The notes under the pieces: model-generated | The model's database searches: none | Seen by the model: only the letters and a program-made list of their open reading frames with translations | What the model was told of the DNA's origin: nothing | Program-made: the position numbers and the translations under genes | NCBI RefSeq assembly: GCF_003573695.1 | Contig: NC_039365.1 | Span: 84,423,089 to 84,487,088 of the forward strand | Length of the DNA: 64,000 nt | Origin: Papaver somniferum | Taxonomy: Eukaryota; Streptophyta; Magnoliopsida; Ranunculales; Papaveraceae | Direction: 5' to 3' | Shown: piece after piece, positions 1 through 32,587 of the stretch | How the letters are laid out: the number at the start of each line of letters is the position of its first letter | Position numbering within the stretch: position 1 is the first letter of the stretch

Positions 1-1290
1 AAAAAATTAAACATATGAGTGAGATTTATTTATTTTTCGAAATTATGATGCGACGAGTGAGTTTTTTTTTTCTTTTTTTGATATTTTAATGTATTGCGAT
101 GTTGATAACGCTTTTACTGATGAGATACATGCACATAATGATGATTGCACAAGAGCATATAAATAAACAAAAATCACGAGCTTCAGAAATTATTGAATAT
201 CGAAATTGGAGAGAACGAGAGGAGGTAACATTTAATCAATTTTATGAAGCTAGAGCAAGTATTATGTGTGCTTCGAAGATGTTGGCAGCCCATAATTTTT
301 TAGTTCTGTTTTCTACTACAATGTCATTTTTATTAGCTTATTATTAAATGTCTTCTATTGGCTTACAGGGTCATCAACGTATTGAGTTTTTATTAGTTAT
401 GCAATAATAATTTTTGTTTAACAAAGTCAATTTTAAAACATGGATCAAATATTTCATAATAGAGATACCTGCCCGTGCATCGCACGGGTGAAAAGTTAGT
501 TTTTATTAGAAAAAAATCTGACTAGGATGGGTAGCCATCTCTATGTGAACCTCTAGAGATACACTAACCCATTAATTTATGAGGTTAGTGTTGGAGAAAG
601 TTTTTAAGGAAAGTGGATGTGTATCACAGTGGATAAAGACTTTTTTTCCCACAGACAAGCGATTGGAAAAGCTCTTATCTGTGTCTTCTCAAATTTCAAC
701 TACCCTTGTCAACTTAAAAACTGAACAACCATTCCAAAAGTAGGTAGAAATTGTTAAACCATAGTAGAGAGAGTGAGAGTGAGAGACCATCCGAGAAGTA
801 GGTAGAAATTGTTGAAACATATTAGTAATATGGCATAGTCATAAGACAAAAGAGCATCTCCTTGGGGCAAATTGAGAAATTCACAGCAAAAGCAGAACGA
901 TTGCATTCCTTAAAATCACGCGGAGACCAAGAAATTGGTACGTACAAAATTCCACTACTGTTGAAATGATGCACATTTGTTCCTAAATTTCTTCTAATGG
1001 CTTAACAATCATTTGTCTTCAACATTACATATTTGTAATACTTGCTTGAGCTAATACAACATCGGACGCAGATAATAGGCTTTTCTAGAAGTCGCCTTAA
1101 AAAACTTTTTACTTGAACTAACCACAACTGATGATTAATGGTGTTTATCTGTAGTTCTGTGTTCTGTACAACTGAGACTTGGGAAGAAAAAAAGAGACAT
1201 TTCAAACTCCAACTTGCTTGTAACCTGAACACTTGATATTCTGAACTGAGATCACTTAAAACTTGCTTGAACAGCGTGAAGGACCGTTTA
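1..1290. other. Intergenic DNA 3' of NUP160, no gene seen
   Basis: AT-rich sequence downstream of the minus-strand NUP160 gene. Its right part, about 1000-1375, probably holds the NUP160 3' UTR. I found no convincing coding region. An 82-codon plus-strand open frame at 99-347 has no recognisable domain or splice context and is not called. The one distinct structure is a short GC-rich hairpin at 472-488. Confidence 0.5.
472..488. repeat. Perfect GC-rich hairpin
   Basis: CCCGTGC and GCACGGG form a perfect 7-bp stem around the loop ATC in otherwise AT-rich DNA. Such hairpins occur at transposon ends in plants, but no partner end or target duplication was found, so the owner is unknown. Confidence 0.5.
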
Positions 1291-13300: not shown

Positions 13301-14318
13301 TTAAGAAATGTACCAGTCTGGATGCTTACCAAGAACTCCAAATATTACACAACTATCCCTAGCTGTCTTATACAATGTAATAAATAGATACACACAGACA
13401 GGATATTACCTGGTGAAGATGGATCAAGTATGCCAAGATGGAAACATCCAACTGAGCCATCACTTCTCCCTACAACTAAACAACCTTTGACTGCTGCTAT
13501 ACTAGTTATGGTTGTTTCAGGTTGTGAATTAGCTTTCAAATCGAATTCTGTAAACTCATTTTGTGGGTATATGGTACATGATGCATAATCACATAAGTTT
13601 CTCAGTTGAATAACATAAGCAATTCCAGAGATTGTAAGTGTGTAAAGAAGATATGGGTTACTGCGAGTCTGCACCGCAAAGAAGACATTGACAGGTATTA
13701 AACCAAAATCTAGTACAAACAAAAAAGAACATAGTACAAACAAACAAACAAAAACAATTATAACCTCGTTTTTGCATATGAAAGCAAATGGGGATAGTGC
13801 GTCTTGAAAGATGAGGCGAAGACCAGTCTTTGGAAACTCTTCTGAAGCTGAAAATTCAATCAATTCAAGAGCATTGGGTTGATTCTTGTGGATTCTCCTG
13901 TCAAAAGAAATTATGTATAGGGAAAATAATAATATTAATACTTCAAGAACTCACTACGTACATACGGAGAGTGAATAAGAACTCACTACGTACTTAGGGT
14001 TACATAATAGGGTTACATAAAATATTGTAAAATACATAATAAAAGAGATTATGAAATTGAAATCAAACAAGGACAAAAGAAAAAGAAATAGAGATTATAA
14101 GTAGAGTACTACTACCAGATGAGATATGCAGGGGGTTTTCCAATGATGTGATATGAGGAAACATCTTCCGTCATGGGAGCGAAGGAGTGCTGCTGCTGAG
14201 AAGTAGCAGTATTACCAGTAATAGCAAGTGAAGAAGAAGGAATTTGAATCTCAAACCACTTGATTGCATCACTGCCGATTACAGGAACTTCCAGCCCCGC
14301 CATTGATCCACTCTTCAT
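1376..14318 (-). CDS. NUP160: Nucleoporin NUP160 (complete, 27 coding exons)
   Basis: Scaffold nucleoporin of the NUP107-160 (Y) complex, acting in nuclear pore assembly and mRNA export. The N-terminus (MAGLEVPVIGSDAIKW after an optional MKSGS) and blocks such as GIGRLWGFMSRGRAVGPVQD, WGMTGQESDAASLF and VWFPYTMIERLWC are typical of plant NUP160. Exons in transcript order: 14116-14318, 13765-13897, 13410-13668, 12633-12693, 12310-12467, 11746-11831, 10967-11071, 10206-10303, 9961-10066, 9336-9518, 8994-9186, 8330-8901, 7819-7981, 7114-7391, 6043-6230, 4928-5001, 4501-4847, 3879-3947, 3458-3776, 3136-3267, 2927-3035, 2767-2838, 2519-2654, 2305-2412, 1959-2099, 1524-1697, 1376-1420. All introns read as GT-AG and the phases close to 1503 codons, close to the family's usual 1500. 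The N-terminal third should be the beta-propeller and the rest alpha-helical. Start could be 14318 or the in-frame ATG at 14303. No disruption seen. Confidence 0.93.
5641..5850. repeat. Tandem repeat of about 62 bp in a NUP160 intron
   Basis: Two close copies start near 5641 and 5702 with ATCCAAAACCTGTATTATAT and end in GGTGCAAGATTAAAAAT. A third, partial and diverged copy (GATGCAAGATTAAAAATAAT) follows near 5816. They lie in the 1-kb intron between 5002 and 6042. Confidence 0.7.
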
Positions 14319-14735: not shown

Positions 14736-14933
14736 AGAATACACAGGGCCGGTCCTGTGTTTTTTGTGGCCTAATGCAAACTTTTTCTTTGTGGCCCCTT
14801 ATAAAGGTATGCTTAATAGTGGTAAGCCACCTATGGCAAGAGAAAAAATCAAAGTTCATCTGCTCTTAGAAATGTTGCTTTATTAACATGTCAATCAAAA
14901 ATTGGTCTAACTACTAAAAGTTGTATATCGTGC

Positions 14934-14983
14934 ACTAAGGAAACTCGCGTTTTTAGGGGCCACCCGAAAGGATTTAGGGGCCA
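14934..14983 (+). repeat. Left subterminal inverted arm of the hAT element
   Basis: Contains CTCGCGTTTTTAGGGGCCAC and AAAGGATTTAGGGGCCA. The reverse complement recurs with few changes at 31814-31860, so the two arms are an inverted pair inside the outer element. Confidence 0.8.
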
Positions 14984-15159
14984 TCAATTTATACCCAGCC
15001 AAAGACTCTAGTTAAGGAGTATTTTATAGGGAAAATTAGGCTCAGGCCCAACCCATGGATAACCCATAATATGAGGCCCCTAGATAAAAGAGTTTTATTA
15101 GTAGGCCCTGAATTAAAAAATAAATTTAATAAAAGCGAAAAGACTAAATTAGCCTCAAG

Positions 15160-15200
15160 TATATAAGAGACGTCACCTACCTTTCTCTCGTTCAGACGTC
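15160..15200 (+). promoter_or_regulatory. TATA box and GACGTCA motifs of the ULP1-like gene
   Basis: TATATAAG at 15160-15167 is followed by GACGTCAC at about 15169 and a second GACGTCA near 15194, about 650 bp before the start codon. ACGT cores are bZIP-type sites. The other end of the element has a matching TGACGTCA near 25752 beside a TATA-like site facing inward. Confidence 0.5.
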
Positions 15201-15843
15201 ATTATTTCATTTCCAAGGAGAGAGAAAACAAATCTCACTCACCTGAAACAGAAAGAAATCTAGAAAAAAACCGAAAAAATCAAGAAATCTTCCTGAAATC
15301 TGTTCCAAAACAAAGATCGAGATCAAAAACTATTCATCATTTGCTAACCCCTAAATCAGAGAAACAGATCGAAAAAGTTTCAGATTCAAAAACCAAAAAA
15401 AATCAAAAGAAACAGTTTCAGATTCAGTTTCATTATTCGCCGTTGTTACTTTCCTGTTGATGAAATACTCCGACGATTAATCACTAGGTAAGTTTTGATT
15501 TGAAGCTGTTAGTTTTGATTCCTGTTGTTACTGATTCGTGGGTCGAAAATTTCTGAACTAGGGTTTGTAATAAGATTACAACAAACATAACTCATTCTGA
15601 CTGATAATTTTACAGATCGGAGAAGGAGAACAATCGTTTGTGCATAAAATCCATGAAATAACTGATTAAATAGAAACAAAGGTAAGTCATGGATGTGATA
15701 TAACTGATTGATTTAGTGGATTTCATTTCTGAGATGTTACTGTTTGAAAACCCTAGAAACTCTAAGTTGAATTGCAATCAACTAACTTGATTTTATTACT
15801 ACATCAACTGCAGATTCAGAATCAAATTTCTTTTGGAATAAAA

Positions 15844-18800
15844 ATGGTGAAAGGAAAAATGAATCCCCCTAGAAAAGATGATACAATTACAGGTACTAAG
15901 TTGTGAAAACTATTGTTGTCATGGTCTCATGTTTATTTCTCATATAACGCTTGTGAATATGTAATTACACAGAACAAGGACATGTGTAACTATAAGTTAC
16001 ACACTCAAAATGTAACCACTGACTGTGTTGTGGTTTGTATATTGATTGTGTAACTTATAGTTACACATACCAAGTGAGCCTGTCACCACTGACTTGCCTA
16101 GGGATGTGTAACTAGTAGTTGCACATAAAAAATTGGTTGTGTTTAGGATGTGTAACTTGTAGTTACACATAGAAAATTGGTTGTGTAAATTGAAGTTACT
16201 CATTAATATGCATGTGTAAGTTAAAGTTACACCTTGTAGAATGTCTAGAATTGAGTGTGTAACTTGTAGTTAAAATCTACTAACTGAAGAAATTTAAAAG
16301 TTTCTAATGTAAGTGATGCTTTTGAATGTATAACTACGCAAACAAGGGCCTGTGTAACTTTAAGTTACACATTTCAAAATCTCACCACTATGTTGTGGTT
16401 TGTATATTGAGTGTGTAACTTGTAGTTACACATACAAATGAGCCTTGCAGAAGTGGCTGTGTAACTTGTAGTTGCACATCTTAACTGTGAGTTACACATT
16501 CAAGATGTTACCAATGACTTGCAAAGTGGTTGTGTAACTATAAGATACACATTGAAAATCTAATCACTGACTTGCCAATTGACTGTGTAACCTTAAGTTA
16601 CACATGCATAATAACATAACCTTCATATGCATGTAAGTTAAGGTTACACAACACAGAATAGAATGATTCAGTTTGTGTACTTGGCAAATACACATAGTTT
16701 GTAACATGATTTTCATTTTGTAGTTAAAAACGAGTGTATTTGATAAGTACACAACATACTGACTCATGCTATTTTTGTGTGTGATGTGTACAGGAAACCT
16801 AAGGCAGTCGTTGAATGCAGTAAAGGATTTAGTAAAGGTGATAAAGCCTATAGGACTGACTGATAGGGCTCAAAGATATCTTAGGAGAGCTGCTTACGGA
16901 GAACTCGTAATGATGTATTACGATGACTATGATACAACTGTACCAACTACAACAAGACAGATAACTACCAACAAACACGGCGTCTTGAAGCTCTTGAACT
17001 GCTTTGACATGGATTGTGAGACACCATGTTCATTCAGGTTTGCTGATGATAAGATTATAGAGTCTACACCGGCAAAGCTGTCTGGTATATTTTGCATGCA
17101 GAGGATTGGAAGCAGAAAGGGTCAGAAGCTGTTAAAGTACTATTGTCCTAGTGATTTGACTGACAATGTTTTATACAGCAAATACTTCACCGATATCAAA
17201 TCTACAAAGCATCAGACGACGGTGACTAAGACAAACATTTTAGAGAAGATAAAACAACTTATGGCAAAAAGGAGAAAAAGTGGGAAAAGAAAGAAAGTTG
17301 ATGAAAAGGATCTAGTTTGCCTGATAGGTCTTTATCTTTGCTGTGTATTGTTTTTTGGCGACAAAAATGCCAATGGAGTGAACGCGAAATATCTTAGTAT
17401 AGTTGAAACTTATGATACGGTGCTCAAGGTGTCGTGGCCTGATTTAATACACGAGCACTTGTTTGAAGAGATTCATACTAATCTTAGTTGTTTGTCAAAT
17501 GTGAAGGCTTGTGTGCAATACCTACTGGTAAAAAGCTTGTGTGTAATTTCTATTCCAGCAGTTTTAGTGTTACGTGATGGATATTTTTGTTCAATCGACT
17601 AATTAAAATTTATATGTTGCAGTTATTGTTTGCTGAACACACGCCAGCAGGATTAATCCCGAAAGTTGAGAACCACGAGGAAGATATCCCGAGGGTTGGG
17701 AGATGGGATATATACCAGATTTCTGATTACATTTGGAAAACAGACATGACACAGTTTTCGGTAAGTGTTATATGTCAGTTGGTTTAGGTTTTGTAAATTT
17801 ATGGTAATGTAATTTAGATAAAACTTTGATGTAATCAAAATTGTCATGTGTAGCTATAAGTTACACATTTAAATGTGCTTGTGTAACCTTTAGTTACACA
17901 TATCCACTTTACATTAGATACATCTAATGTGCTTATGTAACTATAGGTTACACATATAAAATGTGCTTATGTAACTTTAAGTTACACATACAACCGAAAA
18001 AATGTATATTTAGAATGTTCATCTGTTAATTGCAGCCAACTCCTAGCTTTGTGGCTGAGTTTTCACAGCTTGAGAAGCAGCTGGGTATATCAACCGTGGT
18101 ACCCAGCAAGGACGACCTGCAAAGTTGGCTGAAAGCGCAAACTATTGAGAATAGCCATCTGAAAGAGCAACTGCAAGAAAAGCAAGCAATGCTTAAAGCA
18201 GTGTATGCAATTGCAAGAGAAGGGATATCAGAAGGGGACCTTTCAGGAACAGCGGAATTCAAGGTTCACAAATTTAGTTGCCAAATTATCCAAGCAATGG
18301 GTATTGATCCTTACAAAGTGACCCAGGAAGAGTTTATGCAACATGAAGATGATGTACATGGAGATGGAAGTACTGAGCAAGAGAAAGAGAAAGATGACGC
18401 GGAAACTTCCTTCAATGAAGAATGTAAGTAGTTGTTCATTTTTAATATGCTTCTTTAACTTGATGAGGTACCCAATTAGTTGACACTAAGGTCTTTGAAC
18501 CTTTTTAATTTCATATTTTACTTGTTCATTTTTAACTTGCTTGTTTAACTTGATTAGACTTAATAAATGTTGAGTAAACTGATCATATGGATGTGTAATC
18601 CCTAGTTACACATGCCACATGCATGTGTAACTTCTGGTTACACTAGTTAGATGCATGTGTAACTCCATGTTACACTAGGTATCCATGCCATATTCATGTG
18701 TAACATGAAGTTACACATATTAGTTATCCAAGCCAGTTGATTACACATGATATATTCTTCTTGAAATTTTATTAAAAAAATTTAACATCATCATCATCAT

Positions 18801-20929
18801 CCTAATTCTCGTTTCAATACTTGTGCAGTTCCATGTATGAGCCTTGCAGCTGGAAATACGCCAACAATTCTGCAAGCTCAAACTGCTGCAGAGGGGCACA
18901 AAAGACCACTCAGGACATATAGTTCGAGTATGAAGAGTGTGACAACTTGCAAGACTCCACCAAAGAAAAAGCCTGTCGCAAAGCAAAAGCCCACTCCTAC
19001 AAATAATGTTGATGAGGAGCAGAAGAAAGATGTTGAAGAGACACCTGTTACGGATGAGGCACAGAAGAAAGCTGCAGATGGTGGAGTTGTGGATGGGGCA
19101 GGTGATGATGTAGCTGCAAAAGTCAATGAGGATACACCTGGAACTTTTGATGACAGTTCTGCTTCAACACAGTTTGAGGACTCCATGGTGATAACTGCTA
19201 CAACACCGCAAACACAGCCTGACAATGCTCAGACCTACAGTTTGGTCCAACTAGGAGCTAACCCTGATGATATGACGAATGTTGAAGTGAGTGAAATGAT
19301 AGATGAGATCGTCAGCAACATTAACAAAACTGAACATGGACCCGCAGTGACGGAGAATGCAGAACCTACCTCAACTGGTAACCACTCTTCCGTTCTATGT
19401 TTTGTTTGTAATGGAAGTGTAACTTCAAGTTACACATTGTAAAAGGCATGTGTAGCTTGAGGTTACATACAATACATTATTATTTTGGCTTGTGTAACTT
19501 TAAGTTACATACATGTGCTAATTTTACTGAGATTCTGCCTATATTTGTTTGTGCAGCTACAACGCAGGAAAACGTTTTTAGCCTTGGATTAGAAAAAACT
19601 CCAAAACCTGCAGGAGAGTTACTAAAGGAAGCTGCAAATACAATAAGAGAAAGGCAACCATCATTAATACAACAACGTGTGCTGAGGAATAGAAAAATCC
19701 CAACACAAGATCTGAAACAATATCAAAGAAATTCAAAGAGGATTAAGAAGAAAGCTAATGAAGAAGAAATGGCCGCAGTTCCAGAAGTAGAAGAAGATAG
19801 AATGGCTGAGGTTGCTGAAGAAGATGATGGAACAATGAGAAACGATGTGAAAGGTTCAGAAGTTATCGAAAGGCTGGAAGGCGAGAAAAAGAATAAAGTG
19901 CTTGAATATTTCAATACTCATCCGAAAACGTAAGTAGCTTGACTCCAAGTAGGCTTGATTCTGTTATTGATTTGTATTTTACTACTTGATTCTGTTATCT
20001 TGATTGATAATAGTTTACTTCTTTGTAATGCAGAGACATTGCTTGGATAGAATGCGACGAAGATGGTAACCAGATGTTTGATATATCTGGAGAACTAATG
20101 CTACAGCTTACAAAGAAAGAATCCTATTTGGAGTCAGAATTCATCGACTTCTACATTAGCAGATTGAAGACAAAGATGAACTCTAACAGCAAGTATGACA
20201 AAGCGATATTCCTGTCGCCAAAAGCATACGTAAGTACTTCAATATATTTAAAATCTTATTGCATTTATAATGTGTAGTATATGTGGTAAGATTATGATAA
20301 CATACTCAAGATTTTTTTTCCAGTGTAAAACCCAAGGCCCTGTGTGTAACTTCTGTTTACATAATCACTTGTTCATTTGTAACTTTTGATTAAAAATGTG
20401 AGTTTGACATTCCAAATGGTTTTTGCAGATCTCTTACTTGAAGGATTACGAAGAATTCAAGAAATTTTGGATTCCGAAGCTTGCGAAGGAGTATGTCAAG
20501 TACAAGAACGATGCAGTCAGACTTTTCGCCCCAATGTGCAACAACAACACACACTACACACTGCTGGAGTATGACTTGAGGAGCTCTAATCCTTGGTCCT
20601 ACATGAACTCGTCAAACGTTAAGGAACTCAAGGGTGAACACCTTCTTCAAGCCAAGAAATATGCATTTGCAATTACTACAGAACTCAGACTACGCTGTCC
20701 TTTTGCTCTTGGGATGAATGAAAATGCCAAGAATCTCAATGCGCCCCCACAAGGTACAATTCCTGACTGTCTTCCATGTGTATGCAATTACATGAAGATC
20801 AGGATGAAGAATAAACCACTTGACAAAAAATTAACCTCAACTATGATGCTATGGTGGACTGACAAGCTGAACCGCATGAGAGGAAGCATGCTATACAAGA
20901 TTCTTTCGGATCCATCTAGAGATGTGTAA
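15844..20929 (+). CDS. Transposon-borne protein with C-terminal Ulp1 (C48) protease-like domain
   Basis: Accessory gene of the MULE. Eight exons: 15844-15892, 16794-17527, 17623-17760, 18036-18423, 18829-19377, 19557-19929, 20034-20229, 20429-20929. Joined they give an open frame of 975 residues. Residues about 80-290 resemble the DUF1985/PMD type of transposon domain (LIGLYLCCVLFFG at 193, then SWPDLIHEHLFEEI at 230), with a basic stretch KRRKSGKRKK at 175-184. Residues about 315-370 look coiled-coil. Residues 437-740 are low-complexity and charged. The C-terminal 166 residues match Ulp1 SUMO proteases: catalytic-type His851 in THYTLLEYDL, Asp858, Gln917 and Cys923 in PDCLPCVC. The usual Gly after the DC pair is Leu here, so activity is uncertain. 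It is convergent with the transposase, with a 728-bp spacer. Its introns are packed with the element's palindrome. Relatives are the ULP genes of Kaonashi and VANDAL MULEs. Confidence 0.85.
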
Positions 20930-21657
20930 AGCAGTCATTAGGATTAGAAAAAATTCTATACTCGCAAATATGTTGTTAGCCACAAACAGATGTTAGACTT
21001 GGAAAATATGTTGTTAGAAACTTTTAAATTTCGTCAGTTAGTAGATTTTAGCAGTTCTTAGTTTTGCAAAATATTTTTGGGTTGAAATTCTTTGAATTAA
21101 ATTTTTTTATCTTGTTAGAACTACTACTGCTGTGTGTACAGGTTTCAGAAAGTATGCAACAGGTTAAGTAACTACACATCTTAATTTGATGCAGAAAGTG
21201 TAACCTGAGTTTACATATACATTTATCATGTGTAAGCTAATGTTACACATCCATATATTTGAGTGTAAACTGAAGTTACACAAGCCATTGATCGGATTGT
21301 CCAATAAATCAAAATAAAGTTACACCAGCATTTATCATGTGTAAGCTAATGTTACACATGCAATCACAGCAGTGTAACTTCCGGTTACATATCCATATAT
21401 TTGAGTGTAAACAAAAGTTACAGAAAGCATTTGACCACTGATCAGACGTATACAATAAATCAAAAATAGAATAAAACGCATTTCAACTGTGAACTGACAA
21501 AATCTGAATGAATCATCCTTACACATAATCAACGTTGAAGAAAAATAAAAGCGTTTGGTCCATGAAAACCAACATGAAGAAAATTAAAAAAACAAATAAT
21601 CAAAGATAAATAACAATCAAATCATTAGTTGCAGAAATGAATTTTGTTAGGCTCAAG
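20930..21657. other. Spacer between the two convergent MULE genes
   Basis: Tail-to-tail region with the 3' UTRs of the Ulp1-type gene and the transposase. It contains about seven copies of the palindrome between 21190 and 21440 and no open frame of note. Confidence 0.7.
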
Positions 21658-24470
21658 CTAGTGGGGTGTGAACTTCCGAGGATTCCTGCAACCTGCCTTG
21701 TTGTGACCTGTTTCCTTGCAGTTGCTGCAATGAACTTTCCTCTTCACCTTCTTCTCGTGTTTACTTATAATCCTTTTCCCTGGTGGTCTACCTGGATGCT
21801 TCTTCACGGTAGGTGGGTTGACGGTGTCGTCTGGATGATATTCAACAGGCCTGTTGTAGTTGGGAATCGGTTGGATGGCATGCATATAAGTCTTCCTAAA
21901 ATAGTCGCTTGTAAAATACGGTGAAATGAAATCAATAGCCTCACGTTTAATCTTGCGTATGGCTGCAAGAGCATGAGCACAAGGAAAACCATATACGCGC
22001 CACCTGGAAGAAAACAAAAAACAAATCAAAAATCAGTTAGTTGCACATACAAATCATAAAACACTCAAAATTAGCTAGCTACAGGTGCATGTACAGGATG
22101 TGTATCTTTAAGTTACACATATAAAATAAATTTGTAACTATTATTAACACATGCATATATCTAATGTAAAGTGGATATACACATTCTTAAACAAAAGAAC
22201 ATACAAAGAGAAGAAAAAAGCATAAGAAACCAAACCTTTGACAGGTGCAAGTCTCGTGTTCGAGGTCCACCATGTGAGACCTTTCACTAATAACTTCAAA
22301 CACGGTAGGGCTAGCAACCAATACTTCCCAAGCCAAACCTTCATCTTGAAGAGCCACAAGCTTTTCTTCATACTCAGGGGTTAATGGAGTCATCATATTA
22401 GCACCAATTTCACGACGCTCCGCCATCAAACACATTATTTTCCTCCTAATCTGAAAAGGAGAAAAAAACTCATCAATGCATAAAGTGACAAAACATGAAA
22501 TAAAAAGACAACAAAACACACACACACACTCAATTAACCTGATCAAGAAGAGCAGATGCAGGCATCTTCTTGTGAACCAGAACCCAGCTATTGACTGATT
22601 CTGCTAGAGTACTAGATGTTCGTCCATACCGACAACCTTTGAAATAGGCATTCGCATATGCTTCAGGTGGGATTGTCTCGATGTAATCAGCCACCCAATC
22701 GCAGTTCAAATCTCTAATCTTCTGTATGGCTTTCGCATGGTTTTCAGGTGAGAGTGCGTATGTCGCCTCTCGGAAATGGTCCATCACAAGTGAGTACCTA
22801 GGATCTGTTGCAGTGATGGGTATATTCTTCGTCAAATGATAGTAGCAGAAGCTGTGGAACCCATCTGGATAAACAAGTGGAACACCTTGCAAGAGTCCTT
22901 CATGGCGATCCGAAAGGAAGGTGATTGGCCTCCCATCACCAACAACTTCTTTCAAATTCCTTAAAAACCACTCCCAGTTGTCGATCGTCTCAGAATCGAC
23001 TAGTGCAAAAGCAAGGGGGAAAAATCCTACAAAAAAATTGTGCAGAATCGAAAGAATAATAAGTTTCACACATGCTAAAACAAATATTTAACTTAAGGTT
23101 ACAGATGCTATTTTCTTAGTTACACACTGAGTAAAGTAATGTGTAACTGAGAGTTACACATGTGTAACTGTTAGTTATTTGTCAACTGAAGTTGTTCATA
23201 AAAAAAAAAACACATAGAAAAAACATACCTTTACCACCATTGATCCCAGTAGCTGCCATCAAGCAACCTTTGAATGTACCAGTCAGGAAAGTAGTATCCA
23301 AGTATACCATTGGACGACAAAACCGGTACCCTTTGATGCATGCAGCAAATGCGATGAAAATCCGCTGGAACTGTTTATTTTCACGTTCAAACTTTATCAC
23401 ACTACCAGGGTTGGTTTCCCTTATAGCATCAATATACCATACCAAGTGCGAGTAGGACTTGACATCGTCGCCATAAATCGTATCATAAACCTTTTCCCTA
23501 GCATTATATGCCTGGTAGTACTCCATGTTGATCCCATAGTTGGTCTGGAAATCAGCAGCAATTTGCTTGGGCTTCTTGTGAGGATTTTTGCGAACTTCTT
23601 CCTCAATCAAACTAGACGAGAAGCTGGTGGAGTAAGTTTGGTTCAAGTTGCGTCCACCAGCACCACAAATGTGCTCAGGGTTATAAGACCTGACCTGAAG
23701 AGATTCATACAAAATATAAACAATTCAACCAAAACACAATATGGTGCCAAAAACATCATGTGTAAACCAAAGTTACACATACTGTAACAAAACATAACAT
23801 ATGCTAAGCATTAGATGACAGAACACGGAAAACCTACCTGAAACATTTCATTCCTTTCATCGATAGAAGCTGCATGGAATTTCCAGCCGCATTTTTCATC
23901 TGCACACTTAGCCGTGAACCTAGAACGCTCATTGTGAGTTACAATCATTTGGAAACCAGTGCGAAGACGATACTTGGTAAAAGCAACCCTGACTTGCTTA
24001 ACTCCTTCAACAAACACATGGCCAATATCACCAAGAACCTTGGGCCAACCATCCGATAACAAAGGTTTCGCTGGCTTACTTTTATCTTCCAAATACATTG
24101 CAACAGTAAGATTGTTTGTGGACGAAGACGAACTACTAGACCCATTAGAAATAGAAGAATCTGCCCTAGAGCTAGAGGAAGAGGCCACACGAGGAACATT
24201 TTGCAAGAAAATATCAACACTGGTCTTCTGTTTACTATTTGTGATAGATATAAGAGCTTGCAAAGAAAAATCACAGTCAAGCGGAAAATCTTTCCCACTT
24301 TCTCGAAAGAAGAAAGTAATACCAAGTGGAGTATACTGCTTCCATTCCTTGCAAACTTGTTCCTTAAACTCATCAAGTTTGATATCAGTATTAACACGCA
24401 GGGTAATGAAATCAGAAAAGTAGCGAACAACAGCAATGCAACTAACAGCAGCGCAACTAACAACAGCCAT
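21658..24470 (-). CDS. MURA-type Mutator transposase (intact frame)
   Basis: Catalyses cut-and-paste movement of the MULE. Five exons: 23838-24470, 23229-23694, 22539-23026, 22236-22450, 21658-22003, giving 715 residues with no stop or frameshift. In order: an N-terminal PB1-like region (about 20-80); a serine-rich linker; a MuDR-type DNA-binding zinc finger with Cys189, Cys194, His219, Cys221; the MULE transposase domain with the first catalytic-type Asp344 in VYLDTTFLTGTFKG and the second Asp406 in FLSDRHEGL; a SWIM zinc finger (Cys597, Cys599, Cys609, His611 in CTCQRWRVYGFPCAHA); and a CCHC zinc knuckle (Cys693, Cys696, His701, Cys706). All hallmarks of an autonomous MULE are present. I did not assign the third acidic residue with certainty. 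Introns carry the element's palindromes. Confidence 0.92.
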
Positions 24471-25680
24471 GACAACCTGAAAATATCAAATACACAATAA
24501 GAATATCAAAATTTGAAAACGAACGCAATTCACTCGGGGGCGTTGCCCCCTCGTGAGAAGTATATTCTATGCGGCAAGCTAAATATAAGTAAAAGATACA
24601 GATGATACAATTGTTTACAAATAAAACATGTTACAGGACATATATATGTAACTTCAACTTACACATTCTTCAAATACAACAGGATATATATGTGTAAACT
24701 AAAATTACACATGTTGTAACTAAAAAAACATCTGCATCTTCCTCACACATGCTTAAAAATACAAAGAGGATATATATGTGTAAAATAAATTTACACATGC
24801 TGCAACTAAAAAACATCTGCATCTTCTTTAAGCATGCTTAAAATACAACATGATATATATGTGTAACCTCAAGTTACACATACTGTAACAAAAAAAACAG
24901 CATGTATACAAATCAATTTGAAGTTGTTTTTTTGAAACAAAATTGTTTCTTCATACTTCTCTCAGTATCAACAAAAAGTAAAACAACAAATTAACAGATC
25001 GCACATGAAAGAACAACAAAATAATTCAAAAAAAAAATTGAAAACAGATCTGAAATCAAAAACAACATAAAATTCTTACCTAGATTTGTTGTTTTCTTTC
25101 TTCTGAAACAATGTTTATTTTGTTCCTCTTCTCAGTATCAAACAAACATGTGTAAGCATCAACAAAAACATGTGTAAGTATCAAAAGTGACAAAAATAGA
25201 TCGAAACGGTAAAATCAAAATCAATTGAATTTGAAAACTAAATCGAAATCACAATTCGTACCTATTTTGATTTATGTATTCCCAACTGTCTTCTTCCTCT
25301 TCTCAGACTCAACAAATTCGAAACAGAACAAAAATCGTAATCAGTAGAAGATCGAGATTCAAAAAATCGATGACAAAACTAGTGAATCAAGCAACAGAAA
25401 AGCTAAAAATGAACAAACCTATTTGTTGTTCATCAATGCAGCTTCACTATCTCGTCAGATCTGAAAAACAGACGAATACACCTCAACGAATTGAGAGAAA
25501 ATTCGTTTTCTTCTTCTTCTCGTTTATGTTGTTCTTCTTCTCGTTTTCTTCCTATCAAATTAACGAAAATCAGTATGAAACTATCAAAATTCACGAATTC
25601 GTCTGAAGAAAAATCTCCAATTCTGTTTCTGAACGAGAGCGGAGAGAAGAAAGAGCTGAATCTGATTTGGTTTTCAGTTT
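24471..25680 (-). other. 5' leader of the MURA gene with palindromes
   Basis: Region between the transposase start and its probable promoter. It contains palindrome copies at 24640-24885 and half-copies near 25150, plus a perfect GGGGGC/GCCCCC hairpin at 24536-24550. GT/AG signals suggest a leader intron. Plus-strand open frames at 25274-25718 show no family resemblance and are not called. Confidence 0.5.
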
Positions 25681-25685
25681 CTGGT

Positions 25686-25768
25686 AGGTATAAAACGTCT
25701 ATAAATAGGGAAGGTTAATTTCGGTATTTTTACTTTTATTAAAAATCCTGATGACGTCAGCAATCCGG
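25686..25768 (-). promoter_or_regulatory. Probable promoter of the MURA gene
   Basis: On the minus strand a TATTTATAG TATA-like sequence at about 25700-25708 follows a TGACGTCA palindrome at about 25752-25759. This mirrors the TATA plus GACGTCA pair at the left end of the element. Confidence 0.4.
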
Positions 25769-25960
25769 GAAAATTGAAAACCAGGCCCCAAAAAAAATAT
25801 TTCTGGGCCTAGAAATATCAAAAACGGAAAGTGTGGAGTTGAGGGTGTAAGATCCATTTTGTGGGGCTTGTATATGGTTGAACCCATATAGTAGGGGGTT
25901 CTAGTATTTTTCACTATTTTATATGATGTTGAAGTTACATAAATGCCCTTCTGGTAAAAC

Positions 25961-25975
25961 TGTATAAAAACCAAA
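25961..25975 (+). promoter_or_regulatory. TATA-like box of the PMD gene
   Basis: TGTATAAAAACC lies about 160 bp upstream of the PMD gene's ATG, just outside the right edge of the nested MULE. Confidence 0.4.
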
Positions 25976-26127
25976 TCAGAAAAAATTCTACTCATTTCAA
26001 CTTCTTCTTCCAGTTTCATATTATCTTCCGATTGTGGAAGAAAAAAAAATTTCCCTCGTTCTTGTGTTCAACGGAAACATCGTCGCGAATCGTAAAATCA
26101 AAACATCGTCGATTCGTTTATAAAACA

Positions 26128-29100
26128 ATGGATAAGGGAAATGAAACCCACAGACCTAGAACCAAAAACGTTGCTCGGGGTATCGATCCAAAGATTGGGA
26201 TTTTAGCAAGAAATAAAGAAATTGTTGTTGCAAATGAAGAAGAACGCGAAGAAGAAGTACCCGTCGATGTAGTTGGTGGTGGCGATTCCGATAGTCAAAC
26301 ACTTCGTCAACTTCAAATGGCCCCAGTTAGGTAAGAATCTATCATTTTTGGGGTTTATTTCGCTTTAATTCGACGAATCGAGAAAAAAAATTCAAGGGTT
26401 TTCGGTTATTTATCCAGATTCGGGCGATATTCATGCTTATTTACTTCCGAATGTAGTCGTGTTCTTCATTTCTCAAGAACATCGACAGTATTCGGGAGAA
26501 ATATTTGATGGTTATCGGGCCGGCCGACCCGAATATTGTTGGTCATATCTTCTGGATACAAACTGGAATAATCGGTAGTTTAATGAATTTTTTGGCTCCC
26601 GAATATATTTAAGTGACACACAGTATTCGGAAGTACACTCACTACCGAATATATATATATATATATTGAAAAAATCTCAAAATTCCTGATATAGGAAAAA
26701 TCTCATTTGGGGCCAGAGTATTCGGAAGACAATATAATGTTTTTACCTCCGATTGGTAGGATAAAATTTTAGAGTTTCTGAACTCCAGTTGATGAATATT
26801 AGGTTGTAAAAATGTTTAGTTATATTCCGATTGTTTTCATTCGGGAAAAATATGTGTATTCTTACTCGAATTTTTTCATTCGGGTTATAGTTGTGTACTT
26901 TGTCTTCCGATTGTGTAGGATGAAAAATTTAGAGCTTCGAAACTCAGTTGTAAATATGTTTAGTTAGCTTTCGATTGTTTGTATTCGGGAACAGTATGTG
27001 TCTTCTTACGTCTGAATGTGTAACATTCGGGTATAGTTCCCATACTTGTCTTCCGATTGTATAGTTTGTAAATATTTTCATTTTTGGTTGTTTAGACAAA
27101 GTCGAGAAAGGAGGAAGAAAGTGACAGCTAGTGCTAGGAGGGAAAGGCGTGCCAAAGGTAATTCAAGTGCTCAACAAAGCTTACAAGAACAAAGCAGTCA
27201 ACAAGGAGTGCAACCAAGTGCTGAACAAAGTGTAGAACAACAAGGCAGTGAACAAGGGGTGCAACCAAGTGTTGAACAAGCCGCTCAACAAAGTGCAGAA
27301 CCAACTGCTCCACAAGTTACACCCCACCATGAAATTGAACCAGTTGATCCAGTGCCAAGAGTAGAAGAAGAAGGACAACCAAGTGGTACCCAAAAAGCCA
27401 AAAAAGGAAAAGATGGTGTAAAGAAGGATATTGCTAAGAAAGCATCACATCTTGTCCCTCAGCACTTGAAGAAGAAGGGTATTCCAGCAGGCACAATCCT
27501 TGGGCTACCGGCATGGAGGAAAATTGCTATTTGGATACAAAGACTCATGGGCCAGAGAAATATACGAAACCGAGGTAATAAAATTACTATTTTTTATTAA
27601 TGTATTGTCTATGTGTTATATCGTAATATTTGTATTAAGGATTTTTTTATGTACTTTAATAGGATCATCAAGATGCGGTCCGTCTACTCAAACCTACCGC
27701 CGCACCAACAAAAATGCTTGCGTGGCCTTTATCCGGTGAATGTGAAAGGTTCAAGTCAATTGTTGCCAACTCGGGGTTAGCTAATGCCGCCGAGAATTCA
27801 TTGTTGGAACATGATCGTGTGGCCATATCGGCGTTCGTGGAGAGAATGTATCCTGAGACCGATACTTTCCATATGCCGTTTGGGGAGATGACGATTACCC
27901 GGATGATGTTGTGCAGATTCTTAACCTTCCCGACCAAGGCACAGCTGTGAAGTTTAACTACACAAAGCAGTTAAGTTGGGCACAACTTTATGCTCTAACT
28001 AAAAAGTGCTTAGGTTGGGATGAAGAGACAACAACACAGAGTTTAGGAGGCATGCAAGTTACAGAACAAGACAGATCAACATTACAGCTTTGATGAATAT
28101 GTTCCGAGGCACCTTGGAGAAGGAAAAAATGGAACGTTAACTGATGAGCAAGTGAACCACGCTGCCACCGCATATCTCCTTTGTGTATTGGGATGTGTCA
28201 TATTCCCCAATACTTCTGGCAACCGGATCGACGCCAACCTTATACAACTTTTGGATCCTCTCCATGAAGTCGGTGACTATTCTTGGGGCACGGCATGCCT
28301 AGCATTCTTGATGGAAGAGTTGAGAAAGGCTTCGAGGCTAGGAACCTGCCAAGTTGCCGGGAACGTGGCTCTATTGCAGGTTTTTTCTTTAACTCTATAA
28401 CTCACTCTATAGTTATTCGGTAGACAATACATATGATGCATATTCATAACTCCAAACTATGCATATTCGGTAGGAATCTACATTGTTAACTTCCGAATGT
28501 AGGTTATTCGGGAACATGTTACTTAGTTTTTTTCCCGATTGTTTAGAATCGGAGTTTAGTCTTGAGTTACTGCCGAATATATAGGCCAAAGTATTATAGG
28601 TTACTGAACTCCAAATGACGCATATTCGGTAGGAAATGATCCATCTCTTTTTCCGAATGTTGGTTATTCGGTGGCTAGGTACTTATTTTGTTTTCCGATT
28701 ATATATAATCGGAAATATTCTTTTGATATACCGAATATACAGGCCAGAAAAACTATAGGTTACTGAACTCCAAATGACGCATATTCGTTAGGAAATGATC
28801 CATATCTATTTCCGAATGTTGGTTATTCGGTGGATAGGTACTTAGTTTTATTTCCGATTATATATAATCGGAAATAATGTTTGGAAATTACTACCGAATA
28901 TACACAATCTATTTACTAAAACTTGGTTTCTTATGTATATAGGCATGGATCTATGACCACTTCCCTATCCTGAAGTTGGCCGGAGAGAACCCGGGGTGGT
29001 GCAAAGGTACTCCTAGAGGAACAAAGTATATATTTGAAGACAACCGTTCTAGGACAAAAGAGCAGCAGTTGATTCGCATGAGGGAGATTTTGGACCAATT

Positions 29101-29982
29101 GAAGGCCTCGGACGTATGCTTTGATCCATACAAGGAAGATCGAGCCAGTGGGCATATAAATGTTCGTCGGACTTGTCCCTTTATTTTGGACCATTGTGGC
29201 ACCCCACAGGATATGTGATGTATAACCCCCTAGGGTGATGCGACAACACGGGTATATACAACATCAACCTGTGGAGAAATGGGGATTACTACAAATTGGA
29301 GTTGGAGTTGTGCTCTTCTAGTGGTGACAATCTCACGATTGTTCACACAGGCCCACCTATTGTTCTTGATAACTGGGATAAGAGGAATGACTTCATTATC
29401 AACACTGGTAGACGAACCACCCGAGGTGATGAAAATTCTCCAGGCTATATGAGTTGGTATAAAAACGTATCACATCCTTTGGTTATCCGTGAAATCAAAT
29501 CCAACACTACTGCGGCGGGTTCAAGTTATAATTGTATCATCAAAGATTAACCAGCTGGTTATGATAGACTGGTATGTGTTCTTATATTTTTGTTCATTTT
29601 ATATTGTTCCTATAAATCTTAGGTAATTACCGTTTGATGTTATGTCATTACGTATAAAAAACAGGTGAATAGGTTCAAGCGTGTTTCCAAAATGTTAACT
29701 GCATGCCTGAAGAGCGGAGATCCCATGCTAGCTGAGAAGATCAAAGAGGATAAAGACCTAGTTGATAATATGGATAACGAAGATTATGCTGCCCAGTTTG
29801 GGGAGAAAGTCACGAAGAGGCATCCTCCCAAGGTGGCAGTATCAAAGACGGGTAAAAGAACTCGAGCTTCATCGAGCGCTGAAGGTGCTCCAACTGAAGG
29901 TGCTCCAACTGAAGGTGCTCAAATCCGTGGTCGTGCAGGACTGGGAGGTAGTCACGGTCGTAAAGTAAAGAAGAGCAGATAA
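26128..29982 (+). pseudogene. Plant-mobile-domain (PMD/MAIL-like) gene, broken by frameshifts
   Basis: Transposon-borne relative of MAIN/MAIL1. Exon-like blocks with GT-AG borders: 26128-26330, 27096 to about 27574, 27663-28379, 28943 to about 29570, 29665-29982. An acidic and lysine-rich N-terminus precedes a Q/S/E-rich stretch with VQPS repeats. The PMD core reads LFGYKDSWAREIYETE, DHQDAVRLLKPTAAP, SAFVERMYPETDTFHMPFGE, AYLLCVLGCVIFP, YSWGTACLAFLMEEL and RVMRQHGYIQHQP. The last exon is basic, with a three-fold GAPTE repeat. The frame changes at about 27480-27510, again at about 27898 (one base short in the run ACCCGG), at about 28060-28075, and at least once in 29210-29300. It cannot give a full protein without those shifts, so I call a pseudogene. 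The core order parallels the N-terminal region of the ULP1-like gene next door. Confidence 0.82.
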
Positions 29983-30002
29983 ATGACAATGATTTGTGTT
30001 GT

Positions 30003-30745
30003 GTTGACTTCCGATTATTACAAGTTCAAAATTGAAAAGTATCAGTTTTTCCCAAATTCTGATTTTTGGGCCATCGTACATTCAGGACTTTACAAAACAA
30101 AATTATCCTCCGAATATTACAAGTTCAAAACAAACCATGCCATGGCTCTAGATGGTTCCAAGGGCCAATATAGAAGGTTAGACAACCCATATTCGGAAGT
30201 TTGGGTAACTGAGTTGACTTCCGATTATTGCAAGTTCAAAATTTAAAAAGTATCAGTTTTTCCCAAATTCTGATTTTTGGGCCATCATACATTCGGGACT
30301 TTACAAAAAAAAATTATCCTCTGAATATTACAAGTTCAAAACAAACCATGCCATGGCTCTAGGTGGTTCCAAGGGCCAATATAGAAGGTTAGACGACCCA
30401 TATTCGGAAGTTTGGGTAACTAAGTTGACTTCCGATTATTGCAAGTTCAAAATTTGAAAAGTATCAGTTTTTCCCAAATTCTGATTTTTGGGCCATCGTA
30501 CATTCGGGACTTTACAAAAAAAAATTATCCTCTGAATATTACAAGTTCAAAACAAACCATGTCATGGCTTTAGGTGGTTCCAAGGGCCAATATAGAAGGT
30601 TAGACAACCCATATTCGGAAGTTTGGGTAACTGAGTTGACTTCCGATTATTGCAAGTTCAAAATTTGAAAAGTATCAGTTTTTCCCAGATTCTGATTTTT
30701 GGGCCATCGTACATTCAGGATTTTACAAAAAAAATTATCCTCCGA
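30003..30745 (+). repeat. 211-bp tandem repeat, about 3.5 copies
   Basis: Units begin with GTTGACTTCCGATTATT at 30003, 30213, 30424 and 30635 (periods 210, 211, 211); the last unit is partial. Each contains the TTCCGATT, CCGAATATT and ATTCGGAAG motifs of the PMD element, so the array multiplies that motif. Copies differ by only a few bases, which indicates recent expansion. Confidence 0.92.
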
Positions 30746-31331
30746 ATAATATAGTCGTGTTTAGAAATACCAACCTAATCGGTAGATAAAAATTTAAGTT
30801 CGCTACCGAATGTCCTATTCGGAGGAAATACGTGTATCGTTAGCAACCGATTGTAGTGCATCATTGATACGAAACCTCAAGGGACATATTTTCAGAAACC
30901 TCAACGGCCATATTTTCAAAAATTAAAGCCATTGGAACTCTAATCTATATAAGGATGGTAACCCCTCTCAGTCAAATAATGTTAAACTATTACCGATTGT
31001 AAAGGATAAGAATACTGAGTTTTGAATTTTTTTGAGGAATTCGTTTTTGGGGCCATTCGGGGGTAAATAACTCTACATAACTACCGAATGTAGATTTTTT
31101 TGGAAAACCAGTTTGGGGTTTTTTCTCATATTCGGCAGTAAACTACTATCTTGGAACTACCGAATATACATATTTGGTACCCAGTGTGTTATATTCGTAA
31201 GTTTATTCGAGAAATTATCTACCGAATCTGGGTAGTTCATGGCATTCAATGCATGCAATAATCGGTTTTTCTTGTTTACAAAAGCACACAAACGCATGCA
31301 AATCGAGTATTTGAGTTTCTTAACACAATAC

Positions 31332-31529
31332 CTGTGTTTTACATGCATTGTTAGCTTCAATATCAGGCGATTCTCCATTTTCTTCCATGAAAGGGTCGTC
31401 TAGGTTTTCCTCTCCACAAAAGTTTGGATCATTCAACATATACCCCAAATCGTCTTCTCTAAACGGTCGTGAACCCTCAACATTTTGTTCTTCGCCATGA
31501 TTCTCACCTTCTTATTCATATCCATCCAT
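31332..31529 (-). pseudogene. Remnant first exon of a gene opposing the PMD gene
   Basis: On the minus strand a 66-codon acidic frame starts at the ATG at 31529, has one stop at codon 6, and then stays open to a good donor (ACACAG|GTATTG) at 31332. It includes FREDDLGYMLNDPNFC and MEENGESPDIEANN. By position it mirrors the MURA gene of the nested MULE, convergent with the accessory gene and close to the right end, so it may be what is left of a transposase. No domain is recognisable. Confidence 0.4.
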
Positions 31530-31813
31530 TTTTGTAGTGATAAAATGGGTTTTCCCTTTTTCCTTCACCTTCTTCTCTATAACTCTAACAACTCAAAAAT
31601 GAAAAAGAAATGGAAAAAATGAAACAAAAATCATTCTAATACTGCGCCGACTACAATCGGAAGTCTGGGTAATATTTTGGCTTCCGATTGCAATCGGAGG
31701 ATAAAAATGTTATCATATCCTCCGAATATATAAGGGTAATTTTGCCATTATGAATTACGCGAGATAAGGGCTGGCTACATTTTCCCTTTGGGTGACCTTT
31801 TTTGTTTTATTGT

Positions 31814-31860
31814 TGGCCCCTAAATCCTTTTGAGTGGCCCCTAAAAACGCGAGGCTAAGG
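31814..31860 (-). repeat. Right subterminal inverted arm of the hAT element
   Basis: Reverse complement of the left arm at 14934-14983, including GTGGCCCCTAAAAACGCGAG and TGGCCCCTAAATCCTTT. It supports 14744-32579 as one unit. Confidence 0.8.
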
Positions 31861-32560
31861 AAGTGGTTCACAACACATGACATATACTGTTGTTTGCAGA
31901 AATTATATAACATATTGTAATCGCATCATTTCATTTCTTCACATCTCAATTTTATCCAAACACTGCTATCATTAAGGCAATACATGAATTCTAGAGAATT
32001 AGTGTATCACATAAAGATTACATGAAAATGAAAGTGCGGCAAAAGAAGTTGTGTTTTTAAAATGGATTGCATCTAATAACAATGCAACTATATACTGAAC
32101 ATAAAACATAAGTCCATAAACAATGATATCAAGATCCCAAAAATCTAAAGACTAATTTAGTTTTTAAAAACATCATTGTTAGTATTTAGAAAAGGACACC
32201 CTAAAGGCTCGAACAACACATATCTAATGATCAAAACTCAAACGAATATAGCACAAAAAACATATTACATATATAAATATAATAGTCGAAACACCAAAAC
32301 ACAAAAGAAATGTGATTAATAAAGAAGAAACTACGTAACTATTGAATCAATTGGTTTGAAAAGATAGTATCATACATCCATGAGTTTTTGAATCTTAAAA
32401 CAGTTTTCTTCTTTGTTTTGAGAACTTTCTTTGCCTTCATAACTGGAGTGATCCCTTTTTAAGGGAGAAAAACTCGTATTTCGTAATGTAATTAGATTTT
32501 ATTTTTATTTTTTGGTGGCCCCTTCCAACTCGTGTCCTTAAGCAAGGCTTTTCTTGCTTT
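31861..32560. other. Right arm of the hAT element, noncoding
   Basis: AT-rich sequence between the right inverted arm and the right terminus. No open frame with recognisable content. Confidence 0.6.
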
Positions 32561-32587
32561 AAGGGGAGGGCCGGCCCTGAGAATACA

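Follow-up and report, generated by a model that had tools for sequence, protein, structure and literature searches.

A Mutator-like element (MULE) in the genome of Papaver somniferum (poppy) carries 42 copies of a short spaced palindrome, none of which overlaps coding sequence. The element lies in a 64-kb stretch of contig NC_039365.1, here called the window, and positions are counted from the first letter of that stretch. We propose that these dyads are likely operator sites of the element's own accessory protein, in an anti-silencing system like that of the VANC proteins of Arabidopsis VANDAL elements; we give this full mechanism about an even chance.

The MULE is flanked by a 9-bp target-site duplication (TSD), TATTTTATA, at 15020-15028 and 25915-25923, and its terminal inverted repeats (TIRs) are weak, imperfect and gapped in alignment. 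It contains two convergent genes, arranged tail to tail and with GT-AG introns throughout. One encodes a transposase with Pfam matches to MULE (3.3e-20), SWIM (2.5e-8) and DBD_Tnp_Mut (8.7e-8), and the other encodes the accessory protein. Coding sequence occupies 5,076 of 10,886 bp.

15029..25914, no strand assigned: MULE, 10,886 bp, delimited by the TSD and a weak gapped alignment of the ends
15844..20929, plus strand: accessory gene, 8 exons, 975 codons in an open frame, GT-AG introns
15844-15892, 16794-17527, 17623-17760, 18036-18423, 18829-19377, 19557-19929, 20034-20229 and 20429-20929, plus strand: accessory exons
21658..24470, minus strand: transposase gene, 5 exons, 715 codons, GT-AG introns
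24470-23838, 23694-23229, 23026-22539, 22450-22236 and 22003-21658, minus strand: transposase exons

Each window-type dyad is an inverted pair, TGTGTAACT-N3-AGTTACACA, whose arms stand 3 bp apart and match at 14 or more of their 18 positions. Under this definition there are 42 dyads in the MULE and 43 across the window, and 100 dinucleotide shuffles of the MULE, a control named beforehand, yielded a mean of 0.16 dyads and a maximum of 1. The 34 exact arms in the window (15 of TGTGTAACT and 19 of AGTTACACA) all fall within 15029-25914, with none in the remaining 53 kb. With up to one mismatch there are 72 arms in the MULE, none overlapping an exon, and 19 elsewhere in the window. These counts bear out the dense palindrome confined to noncoding DNA that an initial annotation of the window had described; its figure of 40-45 copies agrees with the dyads but not with single arms, whether exact or with one mismatch.

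The dyads are distributed among accessory introns (27, of which 15 are in intron 1), transposase introns (6), intergenic DNA (5) and DNA upstream of the transposase start codon (4). The ends of the MULE are free of them over 954 bp at the left and 1,034 bp at the right. None of the strands below is assigned.

15983..16694: accessory intron 1, array of 15 dyads
17847..17988: accessory intron 3, array of 4 dyads
18592..18717: accessory intron 4, array of 4 dyads with successive steps of 32, 32 and 41 bp
19416..19511: accessory intron 5, array of 3 dyads
20343..20363: single dyad in accessory intron 7
21229..21424: dyad array in the spacer between the convergent genes, 5 dyads
22099..22151: transposase intron 4, 2 dyads
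23085..23181: dyads in transposase intron 2, 3 dyads
23759..23779: single dyad in transposase intron 1
24645..24880: 4 dyads upstream of the transposase start codon, mostly inside an approximately 85-bp tandem repeat

The arms of the 42 dyads contain CG in no case and CHG in two. The ratio of observed to expected CpG is 0.54 in coding and 0.46 in noncoding parts of the MULE, 0.49 to its left and 0.76 to its right, with no clear pattern.

The same noncoding confinement is seen in other members of the family. Twenty copies of the stretch around accessory exon 2 were compared (L009-L028, L009 being the one in the window): exon 2 contains no dyads and the 1.5 kb toward intron 1 contains 8-17; in some of these copies extra length comes in units of 51-54 bp. 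A further comparison covered five diverged full elements, one from a search with the accessory protein (L035) and four from the list of transposase matches, chosen for low identity (L042-L045). They differ from the window MULE at 22-32% of residues and by 0.24-0.33 (Jukes-Cantor) at fourfold sites. Both genes are present in all five, and the accessory gene is thus kept in each of the four picked by transposase alone, being detected in L044 solely from residue 375 on. Together with the window MULE, these six full elements hold 197 dyads, including five that lie left of the end of L035, and none touches detected coding sequence (27,469 of 60,441 bp). Coding sequence was detected exon by exon, with 10 to 12 of 12 exon probes found in each element.

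The internal geometry of the dyads was scanned at spacers of 0-12 bp, with sites chosen by one exact arm and a partner arm matching at no fewer than seven of nine positions. In the six full elements, 133 of 158 exact arms have a partner at spacer 3, and at most one has a partner at any other spacer. Five gene-less loci (L032 left out) give 61 of 74 arms partnered at spacer 3 and at most two at other spacers. Spacings between neighbouring dyads cluster near 21, 32-33, 42-46, 52-55, 61-64, 74-76, 81-86 and 94-95 bp. At a period of 10.5 bp, the 32 spacings of the window MULE have a resultant of 0.64 (jitter p at its floor, 5e-5), and 21 spacings remain after removal of the 31-34-bp class, with a resultant of 0.50 (p 0.007). 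Pooling the six full elements gives 0.64 (n=137), or 0.456 with the jitter p at its floor of 5e-5 when the 31-34-bp class is left out (n=73); these spacings are not fully independent because the elements share ancestry.

The poppy assembly (2.7 Gb) contains the exact dyad at 6,049 places, compared with 3 occurrences of the reversed pattern and 4 of the version with a 4-bp spacer. Single exact arms are frequent genome-wide (29,590 and 29,964; control, 12,167 and 12,487). The exact dyads listed, 50 in number and all within the first 12 Mb of contig 1, are clustered throughout and form 12 clusters by eye. Six arm clusters fetched from the first 3 Mb contain 16, 17, 9, 4, 26 and 24 dyads. In five of these six arrays one or both ends of the window MULE can be recognized, at just 73% in L032, and BLAST finds no match to the ends in the remaining one (L030). 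Two loci, L033 and L034 (4.5 and 4.2 kb), keep both ends at 81-87% identity and have 24-26 dyads, with no stop-to-stop open reading frame (ORF) longer than 107 amino acids inside. L034 contains about ten repeats of a unit of roughly 197 bp that corresponds to DNA upstream of the transposase, each with one dyad. Gene-less elements therefore retain the ends and the dyads of the family, which extends the private noncoding motif noted initially for the two-gene MULE to its non-autonomous relatives. With both ends and no genes, such elements need mobilization in trans.

The next poppy MULE family, P0013 (the sister family), has a different dyad. Its transposase is 39-49% identical to that of the window family in long matches, with 95 exon-level matches among those listed. 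In the two loci read, L046 and L047, an accessory gene occupies the same tail-to-tail position, and it is homologous to the window accessory gene by tblastn (E 9e-7 and 1e-7) and by HHalign (94.2%, E 1.1e-7, 32% identity across 135 columns). An unbiased word count in these loci identified AATGAAGT/ACTTCATT and AATGAACT/AGTTCATT, which form ASTTCATT-N5/6-AATGAAST. Of the sister dyads, 2 of 36 in one locus and 3 of 44 in the other overlap ORF blocks, the limits of which are approximate. By eye, the C-terminus of the sister accessory protein is Ulp1-like, and both copies have Phe at the catalytic-Cys position.

Directly to the right of the window MULE, at 25950-31780, is an element with a broken PMD-type gene (PF10536, 4.2e-12), a piece of which also gives a DUF1985 row at 0.014. 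This element contains 62 CCGAWT/AWTCGG hexamers, 10.7 per kb versus 0.19 elsewhere, none of them in coding blocks, and apparently carries a second private motif system. The hexamers are paired as AWTCGG-22..24-CCGAWT and CCGAWT-6/7-AWTCGG, and tandem repeats at 28448-28904 (159-bp units) and 30003-30748 (211-bp units) multiply them. By eye, a hAT-like outer element at 14744-32579, with ends CAGGGCCGG...CCGGCCCTG and an 8-bp duplication, AGAATACA, at 14736-14743 and 32580-32587, encloses both the MULE and the PMD element. About 1.2 kb to the left of the MULE there is a Nup120/160-like nucleoporin exon (13345-13863, minus strand; PF11715, E 3e-6, under the cut-off).

The three motifs were tallied across these loci as window dyads (at least 14 of 18), sister dyads (at least 13 of 16) and CCGAWT hexamers, given here in that order. 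The counts are 42, 0 and 1 in the window MULE; 20-36, 0-1 and 2-4 in its five diverged relatives; 9-26, 0-2 and 0-5 in five gene-less loci; 0, 36, 3 and 1, 44, 0 in the two sister loci; 0, 1 and 62 in the PMD element; and 0, 2, 3 and 1, 1, 8 in two DUF1985 loci. The DUF1985 loci (L040 and L041, 2 of 149 matches) were tried as a MULE comparison and set aside as not informative: their repeated words score no higher than 10, compared with 129 for the window MULE, and neither matches the window-family transposase. Among the matches listed, DUF1985 also forms tight clusters in poppy (e.g. C9:19226998-19443244 and C11:3389991-3468788), unlike its dispersed matches. Across two MULE families, one represented by the two sister loci, and one PMD-gene element of unassigned type, motif and accessory gene change together, as VANC-like anti-silencing would predict. 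The co-variation anticipated at the outset, a homologous accessory protein with another dyad, was thus found in this small sample.

The accessory protein itself belongs to a narrow group. Six homologues were found, all from Papaver somniferum and 74-97% identical over the aligned part, and homologue searches with the protein found none outside this species. A PDB search gave no match apart from an unrelated one at E 0.42, and AlphaFold models from two and five near-identical sequences, with mean predicted local distance difference test (pLDDT) scores of 33 and 30, were not used. The only Pfam row at E<=1 is MMtag (0.93), far under the cut-off. A single BLASTP comparison of the PMD piece of the neighbouring element with accessory exon 2 gives E 7e-4, which suggests distant PMD/DUF1985-like ancestry for the N-terminus. 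A Pfam PMD row for exon 2 in 1 of 10 members was rejected as noise and not counted, as its E value of 0.057 is surpassed in unrelated families, which reach 0.0016; the PMD-like N-terminus of the initial annotation is left without Pfam backing. The Ulp1-like C-terminus that it had also proposed is hinted at in the window family, where 1 of 8 exon-8 sequences matches C48 (E 0.024, the top of a scan in which an unrelated family reaches 0.043), but finds no C48 row at E<=1 in the C-terminal pieces of the sister family. At the putative catalytic sites, placed by eye in eight members, His and Gln are present in all, Cys in seven, and Asn replaces Asp in all eight, at the presumed position of the catalytic Asp of Ulp1. 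A resemblance of the C-terminus to Ulp1 is thus only suggested.

We estimated ratios of nonsynonymous to synonymous substitution rates (dN/dS) against the window MULE from one best match per exon; some copies are broken, and the synonymous component (dS) is uneven between exons, as if they had been exchanged. Accessory exons 2 (0.12-0.35, seven loci), 3 (0.13-0.29) and 7 (0.18-0.30) are under constraint by this measure, and the transposase gives 0.23-0.45. Exons 4-6 range from 0.50 to 1.52 in the five diverged elements and from 0.22 to 0.61 in three close copies. Exon 8 gives 0.81-1.04, and the Ulp1-like C-terminus evolves almost freely and is probably not an active protease. In L043 (1901-2877), accessory exons 2-3 have dS of 1.57 and 1.19 versus 0.39 for the transposase, with the same dyad, and this N-terminal part looks as if it came from another lineage.

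We infer that a protein binds the dyads as a dimer, that its identity is the accessory protein rather than the transposase, and that the outcome is anti-silencing. In this scheme the accessory protein would bind in helical register, with the constrained part encoded by exons 2-3 as the candidate binding portion; once bound, it would remove or prevent silent chromatin on the window MULE, and the effect would extend to non-autonomous, gene-less relatives. A broader version, to which we assign somewhat less than an even chance, is that poppy MULEs may run several parallel self-recognition systems, each family with its own spaced palindrome in introns, read by a dimer of a fast-changing, mobile-domain-like accessory protein, helically phased in the window family and serving gene-less elements in trans.

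Several observations weigh against this scheme. The accessory protein has no Pfam DUF1985 row at E<=1, HHalign against two poppy DUF1985 sequences reaches just 1.3%, and the DUF1985-like N-terminus assigned initially was not recovered. Similarly, the sister accessory pieces have no DUF1985, PMD or C48 row at E<=1. A genome search for DUF1985, which gave at least 149 matches with 150 of 1,815 candidates scored, placed none of those listed at the window-family loci compared. The co-variation is based on two sister loci and cannot separate the two proteins, because the sister transposase differs too. Helical phasing is weak or absent in three other groups: the gene-less loci once the 31-34-bp class is set aside (R 0.26, n=13), the neighbouring PMD element (R 0.32) and the two sister loci (0.15 and 0.07). 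Confinement to noncoding DNA would be expected of any added cis-element. In intron alignments of L022-L028, which are unreliable and slip in tandem repeats, arms are barely better conserved than linkers, with a mismatch of 0.25-0.28 versus 0.29-0.32. Finally, VANC21 motifs share one orientation (PMC5735166), and the poppy inverted pairs with their fixed 3-bp spacer differ from such single, same-oriented motifs.

The main rival reader is the transposase, for which the dyads could serve to concentrate the protein or to assemble a transposition complex; we regard this as unlikely, if the strongest of the alternatives. MULE transposases bind element ends, and the dyad-free ends of the window MULE count against this possibility for that reason. 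Furthermore, 27 of the 42 dyads lie in introns of the accessory gene, which is kept in every diverged element chosen by its transposase. In its favour, five of the six sampled arrays match an end of the window MULE, gene-less elements depend on mobilization in trans, the sister family has another transposase along with another dyad, and the maize transposase MURA hypomethylates non-autonomous copies (PMC10398659, in part).

Rather improbable is a second alternative, in which the dyads are enhancers that the element has accumulated and that a dimeric transcription factor of the host would bind. The arms contain GTTAC, a core of GT-3-type trihelix factors, and enhancers are normally found in introns and untranslated regions. 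Against this, the related family has another dyad and the listed exact dyads, three clusters of which were read, are all clustered; the sample therefore shows no isolated host-gene sites.

Neutral spread of a functionless tandem repeat is still less probable. The dyads are clearly multiplied by tandem units, with lengths near 32, 53, 85 and 197 bp, and in close copies the arms are not clearly slower-evolving than the linkers. However, the dyads of L043 are near perfect (mostly 16-18 of 18), and its intron linkers are hardly alignable to the window MULE. Linker alignments there are above null in 4 of 7 compartments and not in the other 3; they cover 19-64 bp in introns 1, 4 and 5, whereas the intergenic spacer aligns over 443 bp at 83%. 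L043 is the sole strong case of dyads outlasting linkers, because in L045, which is closer to the window MULE, linkers align above null in all five compartments tried. The fixed spacer and helical spacing also persist across differing introns, and the sister family has a parallel dyad system.

We reject the reading of the palindromes as RNA hairpins, acting as small-RNA sources or intronic binding sites, as highly improbable. Folding into a 9-bp stem and a 3-nt loop is to be expected and introns are transcribed, but dyads are dense in gene-less elements and also occur intergenically. Moreover, of 358 dyads with 12 or more of 18 matches, 299 are distinct, and 40 of these show a different Watson-Crick pair through changes in both arms, versus 37.2 expected under independence. 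The arms thus vary without an excess of compensatory changes, and the dyad therefore works as a DNA site.

If operator-based anti-silencing by the accessory protein is correct, the sequence-specific anti-silencing of transposons extends beyond Arabidopsis and beyond proteins with a recognizable DUF1985. It would also mean that anti-silencing can recognize DNA through spaced palindromes, in the manner of operators, a logic not described for VANC in the available part of the original study (PMC5735166). That study leaves the target choice of VANC-type proteins to future work, and the homologous accessory proteins with different dyads in two MULE families are a natural swap system for this question. 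Epigenome editing has been proposed as a use of VANC (PMC5735166, in part), and in plants a protein able to erase silent marks at a dyad of 21 bp would make a compact tool of this sort.

The poppy MULE pairs a transposase with an accessory gene, as in the VANC/VANDAL systems. VANDALs are described as having a MULE transposase, degenerate or no long TIRs and a 9-bp TSD (PMC6446971, in part), and all of these are found in the window MULE, with its Pfam MULE, SWIM and DBD matches, 9-bp TSD and weak imperfect TIR. VANC motifs are YAGTATTAY for VANC21 and AGTTGTCC/AGTTGTAC for VANC6 in Arabidopsis, form noncoding tandem repeats and differ between related families (PMC5735166, in part). The poppy system is similar to what this part of the study describes in that a short motif occupies introns, intergenic and upstream DNA and is absent from exons, motifs are gained through tandem repeats, and related families differ in both motif and accessory protein. 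The poppy arms share the frame AGT-NNN-AC with the VANC21 and VANC6 motifs, a post hoc comparison, whereas the sister dyad does not. Unlike VANC, the poppy accessory protein lacks a recognizable DUF1985, and the host belongs to the order Ranunculales. The terms 'palindrom', 'inverted', 'dimer' and 'helical' were not found in the part of the VANC text available (PMC5735166). A search of the literature for the motif strings and for poppy MULEs found no description of the dyad, and the matches listed for poppy MULEs make no mention of Papaver somniferum. Sasaki et al. (EMBO J, 2022) reportedly address the diversification of VANC in eudicots and a helical periodicity of motifs, and may cover the poppy dyad.

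Two further comparisons bear on the reader. Spm TnpA acts at subterminal repeats. MURA acts at TIRs and, like the protein proposed here for poppy, both are element proteins linked to methylation loss on their own family (PMC10398659, in part, for MURA); unlike their sites, the poppy dyads fill the interior and leave the outer kilobase at both ends empty. VANDALs that carry Ulp1 (KIU) have been described together with their motifs (PMC13317346, in part), and the poppy element resembles such Ulp1 MULEs in its weak terminal repeats and in an accessory protein that seems to end Ulp1-like; it differs in the marginal C48 match, the consistent Asn for Asp and the dN/dS of exon 8. Sequence-specific anti-silencing by MULE accessory proteins is already known. 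On present evidence, the poppy system appears to operate like VANC/VANDAL but falls outside that class by its lack of a recognizable DUF1985 and its motif orientation, and would best be described as a new, palindromic variant of that kind.

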